DNA of 37,169 bases from a virus. A program made the translations under genes and the position numbers. Shown here piece after piece: positions 13,302 to 35,814 of this stretch (its first letter is position 1; every line of letters starts with the position of its first letter). Location: positions 1 to 37,169 of IMG/VR virus record IMGVR_UViG_3300036767_001243; one strand, 5' to 3'. The notes below the pieces were generated by a model. It had not been told where the DNA came from, made no database searches, and saw only the letters and a program-made list of their open reading frames with translations.

Positions 13302-13973
13302 ATGAGTCACGAAGATTATGTAGTGCGCAGCTGGGCGCTTGATCATGCGATTCAATCTAACCATAGTGGAGCTGGCGCGGATAAAATCATCAAAGACGCC
13401 GAAAAGTTTTATGGCTTCATGTTTCGCAACAACGGCAGTGTTGCGGATATTAACGATTTAAAGACGGCACGCGCTGTACCACAGCCTGTCGAAGATAACG
13501 CGCAGGAAGTTTTTATTCCGCCCGCCCCAGTGACACCGGAGGATATCGAGCTAACGGACGCAGAAAAGCGTGACGAGGTCAAACATGCGTCGTCTGTGCC
13601 AGAGCCGGCTACCGCACGGTCAGACATTAAGAAGCAGCTCTTGTCCCCGCGCCAAAAAGAAGTTCTTCAGACGATTATTGAATTAAATCGTGAAAAACAA
13701 CAGGCCACGCATAAAGAAATATCCAGACGATCGGGTGTCACTTCGAACAATATCAGCGCGTTCATAAAGATATTGTCCTCCAAAGGTTTTGTTGAACAGA
13801 AGAAGCCGAATATCGGCCGTCGGCTTGTCTGTCGTGCGTTAAAAGATGCCGATGGAAATCCTCTTTTAAACGGTCATCCTGTCGGTGAAAAGGATGCCGC
13901 AACAGGTATCACAAAATGCCAGCCGGGCTACGCAGATGGATACGGAATTTCAACCCTTTTCGAAGAAGAATGA
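13302..13973 (+). CDS. winged-helix cargo protein, function unknown
   Basis: A 223-residue protein starting one base after the portal stop, with CGAGGAGG upstream. The N-terminal 50 residues form one small domain ('SHEDYVVRSWALDHAIQ...DAEKFYGFM'). An acidic linker follows. Residues 115-185 form a MarR-like winged helix ('LSPRQKEVLQTIIELNREK', 'THKEISRRSGVTSNNISAFIKILSSKGFV'). It opens a block not present between portal and F in Mu itself. A regulator of the block or a DNA-packaging accessory is possible. I do not recognise a named family. Confidence 0.75.
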   Translation: MSHEDYVVRSWALDHAIQSNHSGAGADKIIKDAEKFYGFMFRNNGSVADINDLKTARAVPQPVEDNAQEVFIPPAPVTPEDIELTDAEKRDEVKHASSVPEPATARSDIKKQLLSPRQKEVLQTIIELNREKQQATHKEISRRSGVTSNNISAFIKILSSKGFVEQKKPNIGRRLVCRALKDADGNPLLNGHPVGEKDAATGITKCQPGYADGYGISTLFEEE

Positions 13974-14668
13974 CGATGAATTACAAGCGTAAGGAAATTA
14001 TCGGCAATGCAACGCTGTATCTCGGCGATGGTTACGAGATAGCGCCAAAGCTGGGTGTGATGGATGGATTTGTATCCGATCCGCAATATAAATTCGAGAC
14101 AAGCGGTGGCGGTCAGTACCGCAAGAAGCGCAAATGCCTTGAAGAAATCATCGCGCAAGGACTGGATCAGGGCTTTGATCATTCGATCATGAATACCATG
14201 CTTTACAAGGCGGTCTTTGTCTTCTGCCATAACGATCAGTTGCCGGAGCTGTTGGCATATCTGCAGGGAAGCTTTAATCGCTTCTGCGTGATCTCGTATC
14301 ACAAGACAAACCCGCAGCCATTCGGCAATAAACACTATGTGCCGGACACAGAATACATCGTCCACGCATGGAATGATGGCGGTCATCCCGTCGGGACATT
14401 GGCCGAAAAGAAACGCTATATCATCGGGACGAACGGTAAGTCGGCCTATGACCACCCGACCGTTAAGCCGCTGGAGGTCATGATGAAGATTGTCCGGAAC
14501 GTTAACGGAACGCACATTATCGATCCGTTTATGGGAACAGGCACAACCGGTGTGGCGGCCTTACTGCAGGGGAAGACATTTTACGGCATCGAACATAACG
14601 AAAAGTATTTCGATATCGCCTGCCGGCGTATTGAGGAAACACTCAAAGAGCAAGAGGTGGCCGCATGA
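13970..14668 (+). CDS. beta-type DNA methyltransferase with atypical motif IV
   Basis: A 232-residue DNA methylase of the N4/N6 class. The catalytic motif comes first ('VSDPQY', DPQY at 37-40) and the AdoMet motif last ('DPFMGTGTTG' 185-194). 'HPTVKP' (162-167) lies just before the latter, which is the circularly permuted beta order. The usual DPPY/SPPY is DPQY here, and the second proline is normally strongly conserved. The enzyme may be altered in activity or be a specialised subfamily. The ATG at 13970 overlaps the previous stop; 13976 is an alternative. It is likely to protect phage DNA from restriction. Confidence 0.85.
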   Translation: MTMNYKRKEIIGNATLYLGDGYEIAPKLGVMDGFVSDPQYKFETSGGGQYRKKRKCLEEIIAQGLDQGFDHSIMNTMLYKAVFVFCHNDQLPELLAYLQGSFNRFCVISYHKTNPQPFGNKHYVPDTEYIVHAWNDGGHPVGTLAEKKRYIIGTNGKSAYDHPTVKPLEVMMKIVRNVNGTHIIDPFMGTGTTGVAALLQGKTFYGIEHNEKYFDIACRRIEETLKEQEVAA

Positions 14669-15454: not shown

Positions 15455-15587
15455 AGAAAAAGAAGAAATCTTGTCAAGAATACTCCAACGACTAAAACCC
15501 AAACCACAAACGCCGGAACAGAAAAAATCATCTTATCGGCTTTTGATCAGGAACTTAAGAAAGAGGAAGGAACAAAATGCCGGCTGA
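15447..15587 (+). CDS. small basic hypothetical protein
   Basis: A 46-residue ORF that fills the gap between the ASCH gene and F and overlaps both (8 and 11 bases). It begins with an acidic helix ('MDEEKEEILSRILQRLKP') and ends with a basic helix ('YRLLIRNLRKRKEQNAG'). The overlapping start, lack of any other use for the 122-base gap and coherent charge pattern support it. No homology recognised. Confidence 0.5.
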   Translation: MDEEKEEILSRILQRLKPKPQTPEQKKSSYRLLIRNLRKRKEQNAG

Positions 15588-16851
15588 CCTCAAACCATTA
15601 GCGCCTAGAGAAGCTGTCGATTTCTTCCGTAAAAAAGGCTACCGGGCCGGCTTTAGCTGGCAGGATGTCTGGCACGAAGAGCATGCTTACGGCTTTACGG
15701 TCGCAAAAGCCATGCGCAATGATATCTTGCAAGATATACGTGGCGCGGTTGATGAGGCAATCACTGGCGGCGTGCCGTTCAAAGAATTTGCCAAGAAGCT
15801 AGAGCCGACATTGGCCGATAAGGGCTGGTGGGGCCGCAAGGAAATGATTGATCCGAAGACCGGCGAGAAAAAACTGGTCCAGCTTGGATCACCGCGCCGT
15901 CTTAAAACGATCTACCAGACGAATTTGCGGTCTGCCTATAGCGCCGGCCGGTGGGAGCGTATCCAGCGGACAAAGAAAACGCGGCCGTATTTGCGATACG
16001 TTGCCATTCTGGATGATAATACCCGTGATCAGCATCGCGCCTGGCACGATATTATTCTGCCGGTGGATCATCCGTTTTGGCAGCAATTTTATCCGCCGAA
16101 TGGTTGGGGCTGCCGCTGTACTGTTCAGCAGTTGTCCGAACGCGATCTGGAGCGCCGGGGCTTGAAGGTGAGCGCGGATGATACATTGCCGAACGCCAAA
16201 CGCACCTTCACAAACAAACGCACTGGCGAAATCATTCGTGTGCCGCAGGGGATTGATCCGGGCTTTTCATTCAATATCGGCCGTGCGCGGATGAAAGCGT
16301 TAACGCCGCCGCCATTGGATCGGCCACTTAATATTCCCTTTGCCGGCCGTCCGGCGAAAATCCCGATGCCAGATCCGCGCAATCTTGGTGGGCATGTTCT
16401 GTATCAGGATGGCTTGCTCGATAAGCAATATGTGCGCAAATTTCTGCGCGAATTCGATAAAGGCGGAAAACCAAATGTGTTCATGGACGTAATGGGTGAG
16501 CCGGTTATTATTAGCGAGGATCTGTTCAAGACAGCGTCTGGACGTCTTAAATTTAGCAAGGACTTGAGAGTTCGTTATTTGGGCGTGCTCGCACGGACGA
16601 TTAAAGACCCGGATGAAATATGGCATGTATGGGAAGAATATCCGAAAGGTCGCATGACTTTGCGGCGAAAATATATCGCAAGGTTTAAAGTCGGCGATGA
16701 AGATGTTCCGGCATTTATCTTATTTGATACCAACGAAGATGGCTGGAATGGCGTTACAGCTTTTCGGACGGATAAAGAAACATACATCACCAAACAAAGA
16801 AATGGAGCTTTAATTTACCGTCGCACTGACACTGACCAGGATAAAAAATAA
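15577..16851 (+). CDS. F: head morphogenesis protein F fused to a PBECR2-like nuclease domain
   Basis: A 424-residue protein. Residues 1-200 are the Mu F-type minor head domain: 'GYRAGFSWQDVWHEEHAYGF', 'IYQTNLRSAYSAGRWERIQ', and 'PPNGWGCRCTVQQLS' as the conserved Cys pair region. A linker with proline-rich segments (240-275) follows. Residues about 295-415 resemble the PBECR2 group of barnase/EndoU/colicin-like nuclease folds: 'DVMGEPVIISEDLF', 'IKDPDEIWHVWEE', 'RRKYIARF', 'ITKQRNGALIYRR'. Such domains are fused to head proteins in many phages and may be delivered with DNA or act as toxins. A RAGGAA site precedes the ATG. Confidence 0.88.
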   Translation: MPADLKPLAPREAVDFFRKKGYRAGFSWQDVWHEEHAYGFTVAKAMRNDILQDIRGAVDEAITGGVPFKEFAKKLEPTLADKGWWGRKEMIDPKTGEKKLVQLGSPRRLKTIYQTNLRSAYSAGRWERIQRTKKTRPYLRYVAILDDNTRDQHRAWHDIILPVDHPFWQQFYPPNGWGCRCTVQQLSERDLERRGLKVSADDTLPNAKRTFTNKRTGEIIRVPQGIDPGFSFNIGRARMKALTPPPLDRPLNIPFAGRPAKIPMPDPRNLGGHVLYQDGLLDKQYVRKFLREFDKGGKPNVFMDVMGEPVIISEDLFKTASGRLKFSKDLRVRYLGVLARTIKDPDEIWHVWEEYPKGRMTLRRKYIARFKVGDEDVPAFILFDTNEDGWNGVTAFRTDKETYITKQRNGALIYRRTDTDQDKK

Positions 16852-17191: not shown

Positions 17192-18322
17192 ATGAAAAAC
17201 GAATCGCAACAGAAAAACGAAACAAAGAAAAATCAGGGCGAAGTAACCGGCCTTGCTACCGCGCTTGTCGTTGATGGGCCGTGGACGCAGATATTTCCTG
17301 CTGCCGCAGAGTGGTATGGTGCTGATGGACGTGGCCCGTACCGGATGTCCAATCCGCAGCGCGTTATCCTGCAGTCACGCTCTGATGAGTTTATACGCTT
17401 TTCCATGATTGACCGCGATCATGCACGGCAACTTGCGCCGGCGGGAACGCCTGTGAAAGCTGCTGGATGGTTTACTGAATACGAAGTACGTGAAGATGGC
17501 AGTGTCTGGGGGCGCGTTGATTGGACGCCTAAAGGGAAAAGCGAATTGGATGACAGAGAATTTCGCTACTTCTCGCCGACATTCCGTTTCGATAAAGCAA
17601 CCCGTGAAATCACCGTGATTACGGGCGGCTCTCTTACAAACACACCGAATTTCCGTGAGATGCAGGCGCTTGCCAGCAAGGAAAAAACCAAAACCCAAAC
17701 CCCATCAGAGGAGAACAACCCGATGAAAAAAGAATTGATTGCTCTGGCCAAATCGCTTGGCCTTGATCCAGAGGCGTCCAGTGAAGAAGAAATTCTGGCG
17801 GCTGCCCGGAAGTCGCAGGAGAAGATGAAGAAGCTGGAAGAAGATGTCGCCAGCATTAAAAAGCTGGTCAAGCTGGGCGACGATGCTGATATCGCCAGTG
17901 TGCAAAATGCCGTGAAAGATATCGCCGGCAAGCAAGAGACAGCATCCGCAACAAAAGTTGATCCGGAAGAATATGTACCGCGCAAGATGTATGACGAGCT
18001 TGCGACGCGTATGGATAATTTTGAAAAAGATGTTTCCCAGAAAAACGCGACGGAGACTGTGGCTTCAGCCATCAAGGACGGCAAAATCACGCCGGCCCAG
18101 AAAGAATGGGCCGAAGACTATGCCCGCTCAAATCCAGACGGCTTCAAGAAGTTTCTGGATAAGCAGCCAAAAATCGTTGGTGGCAATGATGAAACTGCAA
18201 CGGCCGCGCGTTTTGCCGAAGAAAATGGCGGTTTGACGGAAGCGGATGTTGAGGTTGCAAAGCAGCTTGGTGTCGATCCGGACAAGCTGAAAGATAAGAA
18301 GAATAAGGAAGAAGCTGCGTAA
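17192..18322 (+). CDS. I: Mu I-like prohead protease/scaffold
   Basis: A 376-residue Mu I-type protein. Residues 20-170 are the protease domain: 'VDGPWTQIFPAAAEWYGADGRGP' near the start, 'GWFTEYEVREDGSVWGRVDWTPKG' in the middle, and 'RYFSPTF', 'ITGGSLTNTPNF' at its end. Residues 178-376 form the helical scaffold part, also expressed separately as Z. In Mu, I matures the prohead and removes the scaffold. The ATG lies directly downstream of the putative Mor promoter with little or no 5' leader. The early codons are A-rich. Confidence 0.9.
   Translation: MKNESQQKNETKKNQGEVTGLATALVVDGPWTQIFPAAAEWYGADGRGPYRMSNPQRVILQSRSDEFIRFSMIDRDHARQLAPAGTPVKAAGWFTEYEVREDGSVWGRVDWTPKGKSELDDREFRYFSPTFRFDKATREITVITGGSLTNTPNFREMQALASKEKTKTQTPSEENNPMKKELIALAKSLGLDPEASSEEEILAAARKSQEKMKKLEEDVASIKKLVKLGDDADIASVQNAVKDIAGKQETASATKVDPEEYVPRKMYDELATRMDNFEKDVSQKNATETVASAIKDGKITPAQKEWAEDYARSNPDGFKKFLDKQPKIVGGNDETATAARFAEENGGLTEADVEVAKQLGVDPDKLKDKKNKEEAA
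17723..18322 (+). CDS. Z: nested scaffold protein (Mu Z-like)
   Basis: An in-frame start inside I (MKKELIALAKSLG) is preceded by AGAGGAG, 10 bases upstream, giving a 199-residue product. It equals the C-terminal helical, acidic half of I ('SSEEEILAAARKSQEKMKKLEEDV', coiled coil). This is the same design as Mu gpI/gpZ and lambda C/Nu3, where the shorter product is the capsid scaffold and the longer one adds the protease. The strong internal ribosome site is the direct evidence. Confidence 0.75.
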   Translation: MKKELIALAKSLGLDPEASSEEEILAAARKSQEKMKKLEEDVASIKKLVKLGDDADIASVQNAVKDIAGKQETASATKVDPEEYVPRKMYDELATRMDNFEKDVSQKNATETVASAIKDGKITPAQKEWAEDYARSNPDGFKKFLDKQPKIVGGNDETATAARFAEENGGLTEADVEVAKQLGVDPDKLKDKKNKEEAA

Positions 18323-18343
18323 GGCGTAGCTTCCCCTCTTTTA
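18311..18343 (+). terminator. hairpin with T-rich tail at the end of I/Z
   Basis: GAAGCTGCG at 18311-18319 pairs with CGTAGCTTC at 18325-18333 (one G-T pair, five-base loop), followed by CCCTCTTTT. It overlaps the stop codon of I. It could reduce transcription into the capsid genes or protect the 3' end of an I/Z transcript. The tail is not a pure T-run, so it may be leaky. Confidence 0.5.
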
Positions 18344-18384: not shown

Positions 18385-18792
18385 ATGGCATTGACAAAGG
18401 ACAGAGACACAAAGCAACGGGGCGGAAAGCGTTTTAATGCGCCGGTTGCAGCTTCTACACACATTTATGCGGGCGCATTGGTGGCCCGTGACGCCAGCGG
18501 GAATCTCGTTCCCGGCAGTGAATCGACAGCCCTGAAAAAGCCCGGTGTTGCCAAAGAGAACGTGGACAACAGTGACGGCAGTGCCGGTGACGCGCGTTGT
18601 GATTACGAGCTCGGTTGCTATCCATTCAAGAATAGCGCCAGCACGGACGAAATCACGGCTGCTGATATCGGAAATGATTGTTACATCGTTGACGACGAAA
18701 CAGTTGCCAAGACTGATGACGAAGGCGCACGCAGTGTTGCCGGGCAGATTGTTGACCTTGATAGCTATGGCGTCTGGGTTGACTTCAAATAA
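18385..18792 (+). CDS. capsid decoration/cement protein candidate
   Basis: A 135-residue acidic, beta-rich protein between scaffold and major capsid genes, where Mu-like phages of this group carry a decoration or structural cement protein. The start 'RGGKRFNAPVAASTHIYAGALVARDASGNLVPG' and the end 'AGQIVDLDSYGVWVDF' resemble the gp24/DUF2190-like cement family. A strong AAGGAGAG site precedes the ATG. The function rests on position and fold-like pattern. Confidence 0.65.
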   Translation: MALTKDRDTKQRGGKRFNAPVAASTHIYAGALVARDASGNLVPGSESTALKKPGVAKENVDNSDGSAGDARCDYELGCYPFKNSASTDEITAADIGNDCYIVDDETVAKTDDEGARSVAGQIVDLDSYGVWVDFK

Positions 18793-18796
18793 TTAA

Positions 18797-18871
18797 AGCG
18801 GAGTAGAGCAGTGGCAGCTCGTTAGGTTCATACCCTAAAGGTCGGGGGTTCAAGTCCCCCCTCCGCAACCA
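18797..18871 (+). tRNA. tRNA-Met(CAT), initiator type
   Basis: A 75-base tRNA with encoded CCA. The acceptor stem is GCGGAG/CTCCGC with an unpaired A1:A72. D stem GAGC/GCTC includes an A11:T24 pair. The anticodon stem is TTAGG/CCTAA with loop TTCATAC, anticodon CAT. The variable loop is AGGTC. The T stem is GGGGG/CCCCC with loop TTCAAGT. A missing 1:72 pair and A11:U24 are known hallmarks of bacterial initiator tRNA. Of the three G:C pairs expected in the anticodon stem only two are present (29:41 is A:T). It starts 4 bases after the decoration gene stop and ends 43 bases before the capsid gene. Found within a prophage head operon, it is very unusual. Confidence 0.93.
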
Positions 18872-18914
18872 GAAACACCTTCACAACAATTAAATCGAAG
18901 AGGATTTAGAAGAC

Positions 18915-19808
18915 ATGCTTATTAACAAAACTACACTTGATGCGCTCCGCAAGAATTTCGTCGGTCTGTATGACGAGTCTTTCAATAAAGCAGAGCCAAA
19001 ATGGGACAAGGTCGCGATGCACGTTAAGTCGAATACGGCGGCGAATGTTTACGGCTGGCTCGGCTCAACAACTCGTGTCCGCGAATGGATCGGGGAGCGT
19101 GTTCTCCAGAATTTGGCCGCACATGACTTTGAAATCAAAAACAAGGATTGGGAAGACACAATTTCAGTTGATCGCAATGCGATCGAAGATGACAATCTCG
19201 GTGTGTATGCGCCGATGGTGTCCATGCTTGGTCATGACGCGGCGAACTTCCCAGATGAACTGGTGTTCAGCTTGCTTGCGGCAGCCTTTACGACTGTCGG
19301 CTATGACGGCCAATATTTGGTCGATACGGATCACCCTGTTCTGGATGAGAATGGCAATGTCACATCCGTTTCAAATAGCGGTGGTGGATCAGGTGAGCCG
19401 TGGTTCTTGATTGATGATACGAAGCCAATCAAGCCGATTATCTTCCAAGAGCGCAAGCCGTTTGATTTTGTGGCCCTTGATGACATGAAAGATGAAAACG
19501 TCTTTATGCGTAAAGAGTTTATCTACGGTGTTGATGCCCGCATGAACGTCGGTACAGGTCTGTGGCAACTGATTCAAGGCTCGAAGCAAGACTTGACGGC
19601 CGAGAATTATGCTGCCCGCCGCGCTGCCATGACGAGCATGAAAGGCGATAATGGTCGTCCGCTGCGCTTGAAAGGTAGCCTGTTGGTTGTTGGTCCATCA
19701 AACGAGGAAGCTGCTAAAGAAATTCTGGAAGCAGAGCGCAATGCTGCCGGTGCGACGAACATCCACCGTGGCACAGCCAAGCTTCTGGTTGTACCGGAAC
19801 TCGGCTAA
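18915..19808 (+). CDS. T: major capsid protein (Mu gpT-like)
   Basis: A 297-residue Mu gpT-type major head subunit. Landmarks are 'LDALRKNFVGLYDESFN' at the N-terminus, 'YGWLGSTTRVREWIGER', 'VDRNAIEDDNLGVYAPM', 'YLVDTDHPVL' and 'PLRLKGSLLVVGPSNE'. Mu gpT has 305 residues, so it is full length. The gene is separated from the decoration gene by the tRNA and followed by a strong hairpin, so its mRNA may be processed on both sides. Confidence 0.95.
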   Translation: MLINKTTLDALRKNFVGLYDESFNKAEPKWDKVAMHVKSNTAANVYGWLGSTTRVREWIGERVLQNLAAHDFEIKNKDWEDTISVDRNAIEDDNLGVYAPMVSMLGHDAANFPDELVFSLLAAAFTTVGYDGQYLVDTDHPVLDENGNVTSVSNSGGGSGEPWFLIDDTKPIKPIIFQERKPFDFVALDDMKDENVFMRKEFIYGVDARMNVGTGLWQLIQGSKQDLTAENYAARRAAMTSMKGDNGRPLRLKGSLLVVGPSNEEAAKEILEAERNAAGATNIHRGTAKLLVVPELG

Positions 19809-32363: not shown

Positions 32364-32965
32364 TCTATTTGGCCATCATACTCTATATGGGGATCATGAG
32401 CGGCTATGCGGGCGGTTCATTACCTCATGCGGATAAGCTCGACAAACTTCACCTGACATGGTTGCCAGAGTTGTTGTTTGCCTTGCCGTTCGGATTGGTA
32501 TGGTGGCCAGTATTGTCGATGCTTGATTTGCAAATGCACATCAACATAACCAGAGGCGATGATCTGTTGATGTCTGGTATTGTCTCTCTAGTCTATGTCA
32601 TTATTTCTGTAATTGTAGCATGGTCCTATATCTGGATGCAGACAGGTCACGCGAATGCGTTGCCGTGGGGCAAAGGCGGGCATGATCCAGAGCGTACCAA
32701 CACATTATCACCGATCATTAAATGGCTATCTGATCGACTGCGGGTTGAATATTACAGCACCAATTACGCCCGGCTTTTTATGGCCGTTAAAGGGTGTTTA
32801 ATCGGTCTGCCGGTTGGTGGACTGACACTTCTTATTGGCTGGCCTCTCGGATATGAAATCGGCAGTCGTGCTGGCAATCACGCCGTTGCTGAAGTCGCAG
32901 CCGGTTGCTTTGCCGGATGCGGTGTAAGCTTGGCTTTGTTTGTTATTCAGAGTGTTTTGATATGA
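32360..32965 (+). CDS. multi-pass membrane protein, function unknown
   Basis: A 201-residue membrane protein. Hydrophobic segments lie at about 2-18, 32-52, 73-93, 145-168 and 178-200. The loop between the third and fourth contains 'ALPWGKGGHDPERTNTLSPI'. No family recognised. It overlaps the fibre assembly gene. In its place Mu carries fibre genes or morons. Superinfection exclusion or lysogenic conversion is possible. Confidence 0.7.
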   Translation: MIYLAIILYMGIMSGYAGGSLPHADKLDKLHLTWLPELLFALPFGLVWWPVLSMLDLQMHINITRGDDLLMSGIVSLVYVIISVIVAWSYIWMQTGHANALPWGKGGHDPERTNTLSPIIKWLSDRLRVEYYSTNYARLFMAVKGCLIGLPVGGLTLLIGWPLGYEIGSRAGNHAVAEVAAGCFAGCGVSLALFVIQSVLI

Positions 32966-33105
32966 GTTTCCCTCTTAAGAAGACGGGGGCAGGAGCGCGG
33001 CAACGCTCCCAACCGCAAGAAATGACCTTGCATGACCACAACCGGCCGCGATGCGGTCAATCCCGCCACCCTGTACTGGGCGGGACTATATATAGGAGAT
33101 TCGCT
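32966..33105 (+). promoter_or_regulatory. structured leader of the Dam-type methyltransferase
   Basis: A 140-base gap with two strong hairpins: GGAGCG 32992-32997 with CGCTCC 33004-33009, and TCCCGCC 33061-33067 with GGCGGGA 33079-33085. TATATATAGGAG at 33087-33098 gives the ribosome site for 33106. In Mu the mom gene in the same position is translationally controlled by RNA structure. Something similar is possible here. Confidence 0.4.
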
Positions 33106-33930
33106 ATGGATCATGCAATGCAAATCGTAAAACCGCGTAACCCGCTTGCGCCATATATTGGCGGGAAACTGAAACTTGCGCCGGAGATTATCCGGATCAT
33201 CGAGCAAACAGAACACACCACATATGCCGAATGCTTTGTCGGTATGGGCGGCGTATTCCTGCGGCGTGGCTATGCGCCAAAGGCCGAAGTTATTAATGAC
33301 TACAGCCGTGATGTGTCGAACTTCTTCCGTATCCTGCAGCGCCATTACGTGCAATTCATGGATATGCTGAAATGGCAGATCACAAGCCGGTCAGAGTTTG
33401 AGCGCTTGATACAGACAGATCCTGAAACCTTGACCGATCTGGAACGCGCAGCGCGCTTCTTGTATCTGCAGCGCACGGCATTTGGCGGCAAAGTATCCGG
33501 CCGTAACTTTGGTGTAACGGCCACACGTCCGGCGCGTTTTGATATTACGAAACTGGCCACAGCTCTTGAAGATGTACACGAGCGTTTATCCAGTGTGGTG
33601 ATAGAGTGCCTTGATTATAAAGACTTCATCAAGAAGTACGATCATGAGGGCTGTCTGTTCTATCTCGATCCGCCCTATTTTGACTGCGAAGATGATTACG
33701 GTAAGGGCATGTTCGAGCAGAGCGAATTTGCTGTCATGGCAGAGTGTTTAAAAGCCATTGAAGGGCGCTTTATAATGTCCATTAATGATACCCCACAGAT
33801 ACGTGAAATTTTCAAGGATTTTCATTTCAGTGAGGTCGGTTTGAAGTACTCGGTCGGCGGCGGCGCGAATCAAGTCGCGGCCAAAGAACTGATCATCATG
33901 AATTATGAGCCAAACGCACTATTGTTATGA
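33106..33930 (+). CDS. Dam-type (D12 class) adenine DNA methyltransferase
   Basis: A 274-residue alpha-order adenine methyltransferase. Motif X 'PYIGGK' is at 16-21 and 'CFVGMGGVFLR' forms motif I. The catalytic DPPY is at 188-191 ('FYLDPPYF'). These are intact, so an active N6-adenine enzyme is expected. It is at the right end like Mu mom, and would protect phage DNA against restriction. I place the start at 33106 with AGGAG upstream. An in-frame ATG at 32962 would add 48 residues over the two hairpins and is less likely. Confidence 0.9.
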   Translation: MDHAMQIVKPRNPLAPYIGGKLKLAPEIIRIIEQTEHTTYAECFVGMGGVFLRRGYAPKAEVINDYSRDVSNFFRILQRHYVQFMDMLKWQITSRSEFERLIQTDPETLTDLERAARFLYLQRTAFGGKVSGRNFGVTATRPARFDITKLATALEDVHERLSSVVIECLDYKDFIKKYDHEGCLFYLDPPYFDCEDDYGKGMFEQSEFAVMAECLKAIEGRFIMSINDTPQIREIFKDFHFSEVGLKYSVGGGANQVAAKELIIMNYEPNALLL

Positions 33931-34009: not shown

Positions 34010-34480
34010 GCAGTTGTCACGAACTGTGTTGCTTATATTGAAGGCTCACTAAACGAAAAACTTCAACGTCTACAGACAGTCAAGGCCTTCCAAGAAGCAG
34101 AATATGAAGAAATTGATGCTGCATGCGATATATCGTCTTTTAAAAAATTCAGAAAAATTCGTCAAAAGTGGAATCGTATAAAAAACATGGAGGGCACAGG
34201 TAATAAGTGGGACGAGAAGAACTTGGTCTTTTCTAATTTCTCTTCACTTTATGACCTGAGGAATGAAGTACTTCACTATAAATGCGACTATTTGGAAGCT
34301 GGTGAAGTCCCTAAAGAGTCCATTAAAAGCATCATGCATCAAGTTTGCGACGAACAACCATACGGCGACAAGCCTTACCGCAAGCAACTGAATGAATCAT
34401 GGTGTTCATATTTACTTATGCAGAAGAGCTTGTGCGAGTGGAGTATCACGACAACTAAAGAGCTTAAGAAAATCCTATGA
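34010..34480 (+). pseudogene. HEPN-type protein, 5' end removed by prophage insertion
   Basis: From 34010 an in-frame 156-residue C-terminal part of a protein is coded. It starts inside a hydrophobic helix ('AVVTNCVAYIEGSLNEKLQRL') and carries 'DLRNEVLHY'. This is the R-N-x-x-x-H motif of HEPN RNases (R-x4-H). An apparent start at 33905 would fuse phage end DNA to it and is rejected. The true 5' part should lie left of the prophage. HEPN proteins are toxins or defence effectors; the fragment keeps the motif. It overlaps the integrase gene by 4 bases. Confidence 0.65.
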
Positions 34481-35814
34481 GCAACATAGCACCAAACAGC
34501 AAGTTCAGCTTTACGAAGAAAGCCTTAGACGACCTTCCCTGTCCACCGCAGGGCAAGCGGTACTCGTTTAAAGACGAAAAAGAGCGCGGTCTGATTATTC
34601 GCGTAACCGCCAATGGTCAGAAGACATTCCAGCTTTATCAAAAACACCTAGGAAGGCCTGTCCGGATTACCCTAGGGACATTCCCAGACATGAGCATTGA
34701 GAATGCGCGAAAAGAAGCATTAAAGGCTAAAGGCTCTCTAGCGGGGGGCGTAAATCCGAATATAGAGAAGAACAAGCTCAGGCAAGAAATAACACTCAAA
34801 GAGTTGTTTCAACTCTACATGGACAGATACAGCAAGATTGAGAAGAAATCTTGGAAATATGATGAACGTGAGATCAATAAATTCTTATCGCATTGGTTCA
34901 ATCGAAAAATTTCAGACATCAGCAAGCACGAGATCACCAATCTTCATTTAAAGTTGCGAGAGACAAACGGACTATATCAGGCTAACCGTATATTGGAGCG
35001 CGTAAGAGCTTTGTACAACAAAGCTATTGAATGGGGGTGGGACGGGAACAACCCAACTAAGGGCATCAAGAAATTCAAAGAGAAGAGCCGAGATCGCTAT
35101 ATAAGCCCTGCTGAAATGCCTCTCTTCATTAAAGCCTTAGAGATGGAAGAGAATGAAACAGCAAAAGACTATTTCTACATAGCTCTTTTCACAGGTGCGA
35201 GAAAAACCAATACGCTTATGATGCGTTGGGAACAAATAGACTGGCATAACAGAACGTGGCGTATCCCAGATACTAAGAATGGCGAACCTGTTATAATTCC
35301 ACTCACAAAGCAAGCGGAGGCTATTTTAGATCGACGCTTAAAAGCTGCGCATGGAAACCCTTGGGTATTCCCTAGCGATAGCAGTAAAGAAGGATATTTT
35401 AGCGACCCTAAAAAAGCATGGAACAGAGTTCGGCAGAGAGCGACTATGGAGCTATGGAAGCAGATGCCAGATGTTGCACAACTTATTGCTGAAACAGAAG
35501 AAAAACTAGGAAAAGCGGATAACTACGGCTTTACCGTTTTAAAGCTTTTCGACACAGTGCAGAAAGAAGCCGAGAAAAAGAACATAAACCTGCCTACCGG
35601 CCTAATGGATATCAGACTGCACGATATAAGACGCACATTCGGAAGTTATCAGGCTATATCAGGAGCAAGTTTACAAATTATAGGCAAATCTCTAGGACAT
35701 AAATCGCAGCAATCAACACAAGTTTACGCTAGGCTACACAGTGATCCAGTAAAAGCATCAATGGATAAAGCTACAGATGCTATGTTGGCCTTCGCTACAG
35801 GAGAGAAAAAATAA
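34477..35814 (+). CDS. int: tyrosine site-specific integrase
   Basis: A 445-residue integrase of the P4/DUF4102 type. Residues 10-95 make the N-terminal domain ('GLIIRVTANGQKTFQLYQK', 'TLGTFPDMSIENARKEA'). 100-185 is the SAM-like core-binding domain. The catalytic residues are R242, K267, H382, R385, H408 and Y417. All are present, so it should be active. A spacer of about 60 residues (320-380) before the H-x-x-R box is longer than in lambda-type enzymes. It lies outside the Mu-like prophage end and belongs to a separate integrated element. Confidence 0.93.
   Translation: MSNIAPNSKFSFTKKALDDLPCPPQGKRYSFKDEKERGLIIRVTANGQKTFQLYQKHLGRPVRITLGTFPDMSIENARKEALKAKGSLAGGVNPNIEKNKLRQEITLKELFQLYMDRYSKIEKKSWKYDEREINKFLSHWFNRKISDISKHEITNLHLKLRETNGLYQANRILERVRALYNKAIEWGWDGNNPTKGIKKFKEKSRDRYISPAEMPLFIKALEMEENETAKDYFYIALFTGARKTNTLMMRWEQIDWHNRTWRIPDTKNGEPVIIPLTKQAEAILDRRLKAAHGNPWVFPSDSSKEGYFSDPKKAWNRVRQRATMELWKQMPDVAQLIAETEEKLGKADNYGFTVLKLFDTVQKEAEKKNINLPTGLMDIRLHDIRRTFGSYQAISGASLQIIGKSLGHKSQQSTQVYARLHSDPVKASMDKATDAMLAFATGEKK

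Follow-up and report, generated by a model that had tools for sequence, protein, structure and literature searches.

What might a Mu-like phage gain from a lone initiator-type tRNA gene lodged among its head genes? The function of phage tRNAs remains a matter of debate, and since an initiator tRNA is not explicable by codon compensation, such a gene separates the competing hypotheses on that function well. The window, i.e., the whole 37,169-base stretch of DNA analyzed here, comes from a viral record and presents the gene complement of a Mu-like phage: a MuA-type transposase, an AAA ATPase in the MuB position, a Mu portal, a Mu F protein with a PBECR2 domain, a Mu I protease, and a gpT head protein. 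ARAGORN and Rfam recover a single tRNA in the entire window; ARAGORN calls it as a tRNA-Met(CAT) at exactly 18797-18871 on the + strand, and the Rfam tRNA model (RF00005) matches the same segment with 62.7 bits (E 1.9e-11).

The gene is 75 nt long with an encoded CCA end, and its RNA, folded alone, yields a full cloverleaf (-28 kcal/mol, z -2.85) that leaves positions 1 and 72 unpaired. Its 5' half parses into A1 GCGGAG, TA, GAGC-AGTGGCA-GCTC, G26, and TTAGG-TTCATAC-CCTAA, and its 3' half into AGGTC, GGGGG-TTCAAGT-CCCCC, CTCCGCA72, and A73 CCA. On the + strand, these include the 5' acceptor strand A1 G2 C3 G4 G5 A6 G7 (18797-18803, from parse and fold) and, from the parsed sequence, the D-arm (18806-18820) with A11:T24 and a 7-nt D-loop lacking 17/17a, the anticodon loop (18827-18833) with T32 at 18827, CAT at 18829-18831, and C38 at 18833, and the discriminator A73 with the CCA (18868-18871). 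A1 faces an unpaired A72 (18867), and the succeeding pairs G2:C71, C3:G70, and G4:C69 are as in E. coli tRNA-fMet. In the bacterial initiator, methionyl-tRNA synthetase and formyltransferase rely on the A1xA72 mismatch, these three pairs, A11:U24, A73, and the CAU anticodon.

The features that an earlier, sequence-only reading of this DNA had claimed, namely the cloverleaf, CAT, encoded CCA, A1xA72, A11:T24, and A29:T41, are all recovered by ARAGORN, parse, and fold. Measured against the usual hallmarks of initiators, the tRNA lacks a Watson-Crick pair at 1:72, has a purine at 11 opposite a pyrimidine at 24, and combines the CAU anticodon with A73 and a CCA end; in place of three G:C pairs at 29-31:39-41 it has two plus A29:U41, and in place of the loop CUCAUAA, which is usual for initiators and not functionally defining, it has UUCAUAC. 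A per-position log-odds score contrasting 152 cellular initiators with 64 elongator-type CAT tRNAs places it at +31.2, within the range of the initiators (22.5 to 60.1) and above the best elongator-type score (7.8); the D-stem supplies much of this score, and without it the value is 9.6, within the range of both reference sets. The claim of a phage-borne tRNA of the initiator type is strongly supported. The same reading had taken A29:T41 as a defect; we rejected it as an oddity since most of the Pseudomonadota hosts sampled share it (30/37 of the initiator loci parsed, as well as most of the matches listed from 398 genomes). Two features had been overlooked, viz., the T32/C38 anticodon loop and the 7-nt D-loop. 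We considered whether the short D-loop might mark phage genes and rejected this, as it is frequent in genomes of Bacteroidales, Chloroflexi, and Planococcaceae and is also seen at 6/37 of the Pseudomonadota host loci.

The location in the late operon is likewise as previously described, with the tRNA starting 4 nt past the stop (18792) of a 135-aa gene in the capsid-decoration position (18385-18792, + strand; no Pfam hit, homologous in tRNA-less relatives) and ending 43 nt ahead of the ATG (18915) of the Mu-like major head subunit gpT (18915-19808, + strand; Pfam PF10124, E 2e-118). The Mu-like prophage I protein (protease/scaffold; 17192-18322, + strand; Pfam PF10123) is encoded further upstream. 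No promoter- or terminator-like signal around the tRNA rises above shuffle expectation, which suggests that it is probably transcribed together with the head operon. A possible ribosome-binding site of gpT, GAGGA (18900-18904, + strand, from inspection of the sequence), lies 3' of the tRNA, so that a processed capsid message would keep this putative site. The end of the protease gene overlaps a ten-pair hairpin followed by CCCTCTTTTA (18311-18333), which is terminator-like in form and not above the regional shuffle expectation. Elsewhere, the window encodes two DNA methyltransferases (N6_N4_Mtase, D12 class), one between the portal and F genes (13916-14668) and the other near the right end (32905-33930). 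An integrase-type tyrosine recombinase (34477-35814) is also found at the right end of this Mu-like genome, which has its own MuA-type transposase, and might belong to a flanking host island or represent cargo. It is the only integrase gene found and lies ~15.6 kb from the tRNA; a role for the tRNA as an attachment site or in tRNA-dependent lysogeny was rejected given the Mu-type transposase and a full-length tRNA situated midway among the head genes.

At the homologous decoration-gpT junctions of relatives from viral contigs and genomes (gpT 30-54% identical), the tRNA is absent in 8 viral and 13 genome loci, and the gap between the two genes, where measurable, is mostly about 10-40 nt. These tRNA-less junctions indicate that the tRNA is an insertion in this lineage, which at the available sampling appears to be private to this phage.

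The anticodon loop is where this tRNA departs from its cellular counterparts. C32/A38 is present in 152/152 of the cellular initiators parsed, with the loop CUCAUAA, whereas the UUCAUAC loop of the phage tRNA displays both A38->C and C32->U, a paired change across position 32-38. Among 398 Pseudomonadota genomes, 329 of them with an initiator match, exactly one initiator-type gene lacks A38. This is an extra copy in a genome (G189) that also has a normal copy, and it lies in the head cluster of a Mu-like prophage, flanked by the major head gene and gp36 (locus L276). The same arrangement is found in a viral contig (L217), and its persistence despite only 57% identity between the two capsids indicates that the tRNA gene has been retained at this site in both. 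When viral contigs were scanned without bias, at least 119 initiator-type matches were recovered, some of them host flanks. Non-A38 forms account for 6 of the 115 viral genes parsed among the matches listed (3 of the 6 being U32/C38) versus 0/328 cellular ones (Fisher p 0.0003), a contrast in which the viral contigs span hosts of every phylum and contain some host-derived flanks. These observations define a viral class of initiator genes that is absent from the sampled cellular genomes outside a prophage.

A scan of viral contigs specifically for the U32/C38 initiator type, using a pattern in which the loop, the D-stem, and positions 30, 31, 39, and 40 were fixed and position 29 had to be a purine, returned about 90 stretches with 73 distinct sequences, near-duplicates included. 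Across the distinct sequences, pairing is kept in 1164/1168 stem cells other than 1:72, in many cases through compensatory substitutions, a count that includes the pattern-fixed pairs 30:40 and 31:39, which hence offer no independent evidence. Position 1:72 is unpaired in 57/73, and 29:41 is only ever A:T or G:C. Judged by these pairing patterns, the viral U32/C38 genes look like functional tRNAs under selection. The U32/C38 combination also occurs in 8/64 elongator-type CAT tRNAs of the reference set, and so may be a general drift or decoding feature of phage tRNAs. Two further viral tRNAs are noteworthy: EBPR siphovirus 2 (L522 2500-2575) has a hybrid Met tRNA with a 1:72 mismatch and a UUCAUAC loop and an elongator-like C11:G24, and in another viral contig (L154 8982-10412), an initiator-like tRNA with no encoded CCA precedes a TROVE/Ro60-like gene by 14 nt and might be a tRNA-like Y RNA.

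The U32/C38 initiators variously adjoin genes for major head proteins (L016, L152, L171, L188, L236), portals (L155, L164, L184), terminase plus portal (L181), terminase (L208), or the tail sheath (L215). Head/packaging families make up about 17/84 of the neighbors tallied versus 6/99 in two comparison sets, comprising viral CTCATAA initiators and viral elongator tRNAs (p 0.006, indicative only, with tallies made by family rather than per locus and some redundancy and near-duplicates). The same initiator type is found in CBW1004C-Prop1 and Ochrobactrum phage POI1126 (both UUCAUAC) and in Clavibacter phage CN1A (CUCAUAU); the tRNA is positioned just before the terminase genes in phiLM21 and CN1A and between the capsid and portal genes in POI1126. 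The POI1126 gene (L527 2501-2575; KY417925.1 6932-7006) is unannotated and overlaps the end of an annotated hypothetical gene. The sequence-only reading had held most phage tRNA-Met genes to be elongators; initiator-type tRNAs are nonetheless not rare in phages, to judge by the number of matches in viral contigs, some of them host flanks, and by a report that ranks tRNA-fMet among the tRNAs most commonly introduced by phages in S. meliloti (PMC11476347).

Anticodon nucleases provide a potential context for the altered loop. VapC of Shigella/Salmonella makes a single-bond cut in tRNA-fMet between A38 and C39 (PMC4105405), a VapC from the alphaproteobacterium Rickettsia cleaves the same tRNA in the region of its anticodon loop (PMC12321070), and in phage tRNAs the loop is changed at sites of nuclease attack, for which evasion has been proposed (van den Berg et al. 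2023, PMC10264068). The altered position 38 of the present tRNA lies immediately 5' of this published VapC cut, placing the A38->C38 change at or next to a known site, that of the Shigella/Salmonella enzyme. Our tentative preference, held well short of conviction, is that this is a working late-operon initiator tRNA with a loop altered such that host anticodon nucleases depleting tRNA-fMet spare it. Under this proposal, a Mu-like phage would have acquired a charge-competent initiator tRNA gene and placed it in the head-gene operon, where it would be transcribed late and the tRNA released by host tRNA processing enzymes. The tRNA would keep the features for methionylation, formylation, and the P site, with U32/C38 replacing C32/A38. 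Upon cleavage of the host initiator tRNA in its anticodon stem-loop, e.g., by VapC-type toxins, the altered loop would make the phage tRNA a poor nuclease substrate and allow it to sustain translation initiation late in infection. Among the three functions raised by the sequence-only reading (late supply of fMet-tRNA, replacement of a cleaved host tRNA, and a processing point in the capsid mRNA), replacement fits best because of the loop change; the cleavage resistance it entails is, along with the expression, processing, formylation, and use in initiation of the phage tRNA, what we infer from these patterns. As a wider and rather doubtful conjecture, unrelated tailed phages might repeatedly place a lone non-A38 initiator tRNA with a nuclease-resistant loop in head/packaging operons as a late counter-defense against initiator-cutting toxins.

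The main rival is supply alone, wherein the phage merely adds fMet-tRNA to serve the surge of initiation on capsid and tail messages late in infection, with no nuclease involved and the loop change being incidental. The late-operon position and the recurrence of head/packaging genes beside such tRNAs are as would be expected from supply, and the normal loop is kept in 106/115 of the viral-contig initiator genes among the matches listed, some of them host flanks, indicating that altered loops are not required. However, it leaves the presence of non-A38 loops in viruses and not in cells unexplained, and we see it as possible, if somewhat unlikely. The tRNA-less junctions of relatives would also accommodate a recently acquired host initiator gene that is drifting as a passenger, but all the stems are intact, even at pairs unlike the host consensus, the loop recurs in 73 distinct and compensating sequences, and the gene is kept in place between L217 and L276; this makes a passenger unlikely.

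The placement between the decoration and gpT genes, with the possible ribosome-binding site staying on the downstream piece, would also fit mRNA punctuation, in which RNase P and 3' processing might split the capsid message from the upstream genes and set capsid expression. The relatives lend this no support: a short gap with no tRNA suffices at the homologous junctions, making such a device dispensable, and the location of the tRNA varies among phages, others having it downstream of the capsid gene or on either side of the portal or terminase gene. Moreover, any tRNA would do for this purpose and the initiator identity would be superfluous; we therefore consider punctuation improbable. Least credible of all is self-protection, whereby the PBECR2 domain (of the Barnase/EndoU/ColicinE5-D/RelE-like group) at the C-terminus of gpF (15577-16851) would cut the initiator tRNA of the host while the altered one of the phage would resist it, since PBECR2 occurs with no tRNA in L006 and was not detected in L276 and L217, which have the tRNA, and the link was rejected for this want of association. 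With this nuclease-like domain, the gpF-like head morphogenesis protein is a structural protein that may carry an RNase.

Phage-borne tRNA-fMet has been recorded before (PMC12429752; PMC11476347); our literature search found no paper on phage initiator tRNAs with altered loops or on one in a Mu-like head operon, which does not prove absence. In comparison to the host-type bacterial initiator tRNA-fMet, the phage tRNA shares the 1:72 mismatch, G2:C71-C3:G70-G4:C69, A11:U24, G30:C40, G31:C39, CAU, A73, and CCA, and its A29:U41 is the variant common in Pseudomonadota hosts; it differs in having U32/C38 instead of C32/A38 and a 7-nt instead of the 9-nt D-loop usual in Pseudomonadota. The phiLM21-like prophages of S. 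meliloti (PMC12429752, PMC11476347), CBW1004C-Prop1, POI1126, and CN1A similarly carry an initiator gene, usually alone or nearly so and often near terminase, portal, or capsid genes, as in our phage; none of these is in a gpT-type Mu-like head operon, and the parts of those reports available to us do not discuss loop changes. A further parallel is with the anticodon-nuclease-evading phage tRNAs (PMC10264068), in which the loop is altered at or next to a published cut site, as it is here. According to that study, phages generally avoid tRNA-fMet when it is the nuclease target (the VapC-LT2/Shigella case), a statement that is qualified by the Mu-like phage described here, which encodes tRNA-fMet with A38 replaced. 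As the change in this viral class adjoins the published toxin cut site, a single enzyme and a pair of tRNAs would suffice for a direct test of the counter-defense idea.
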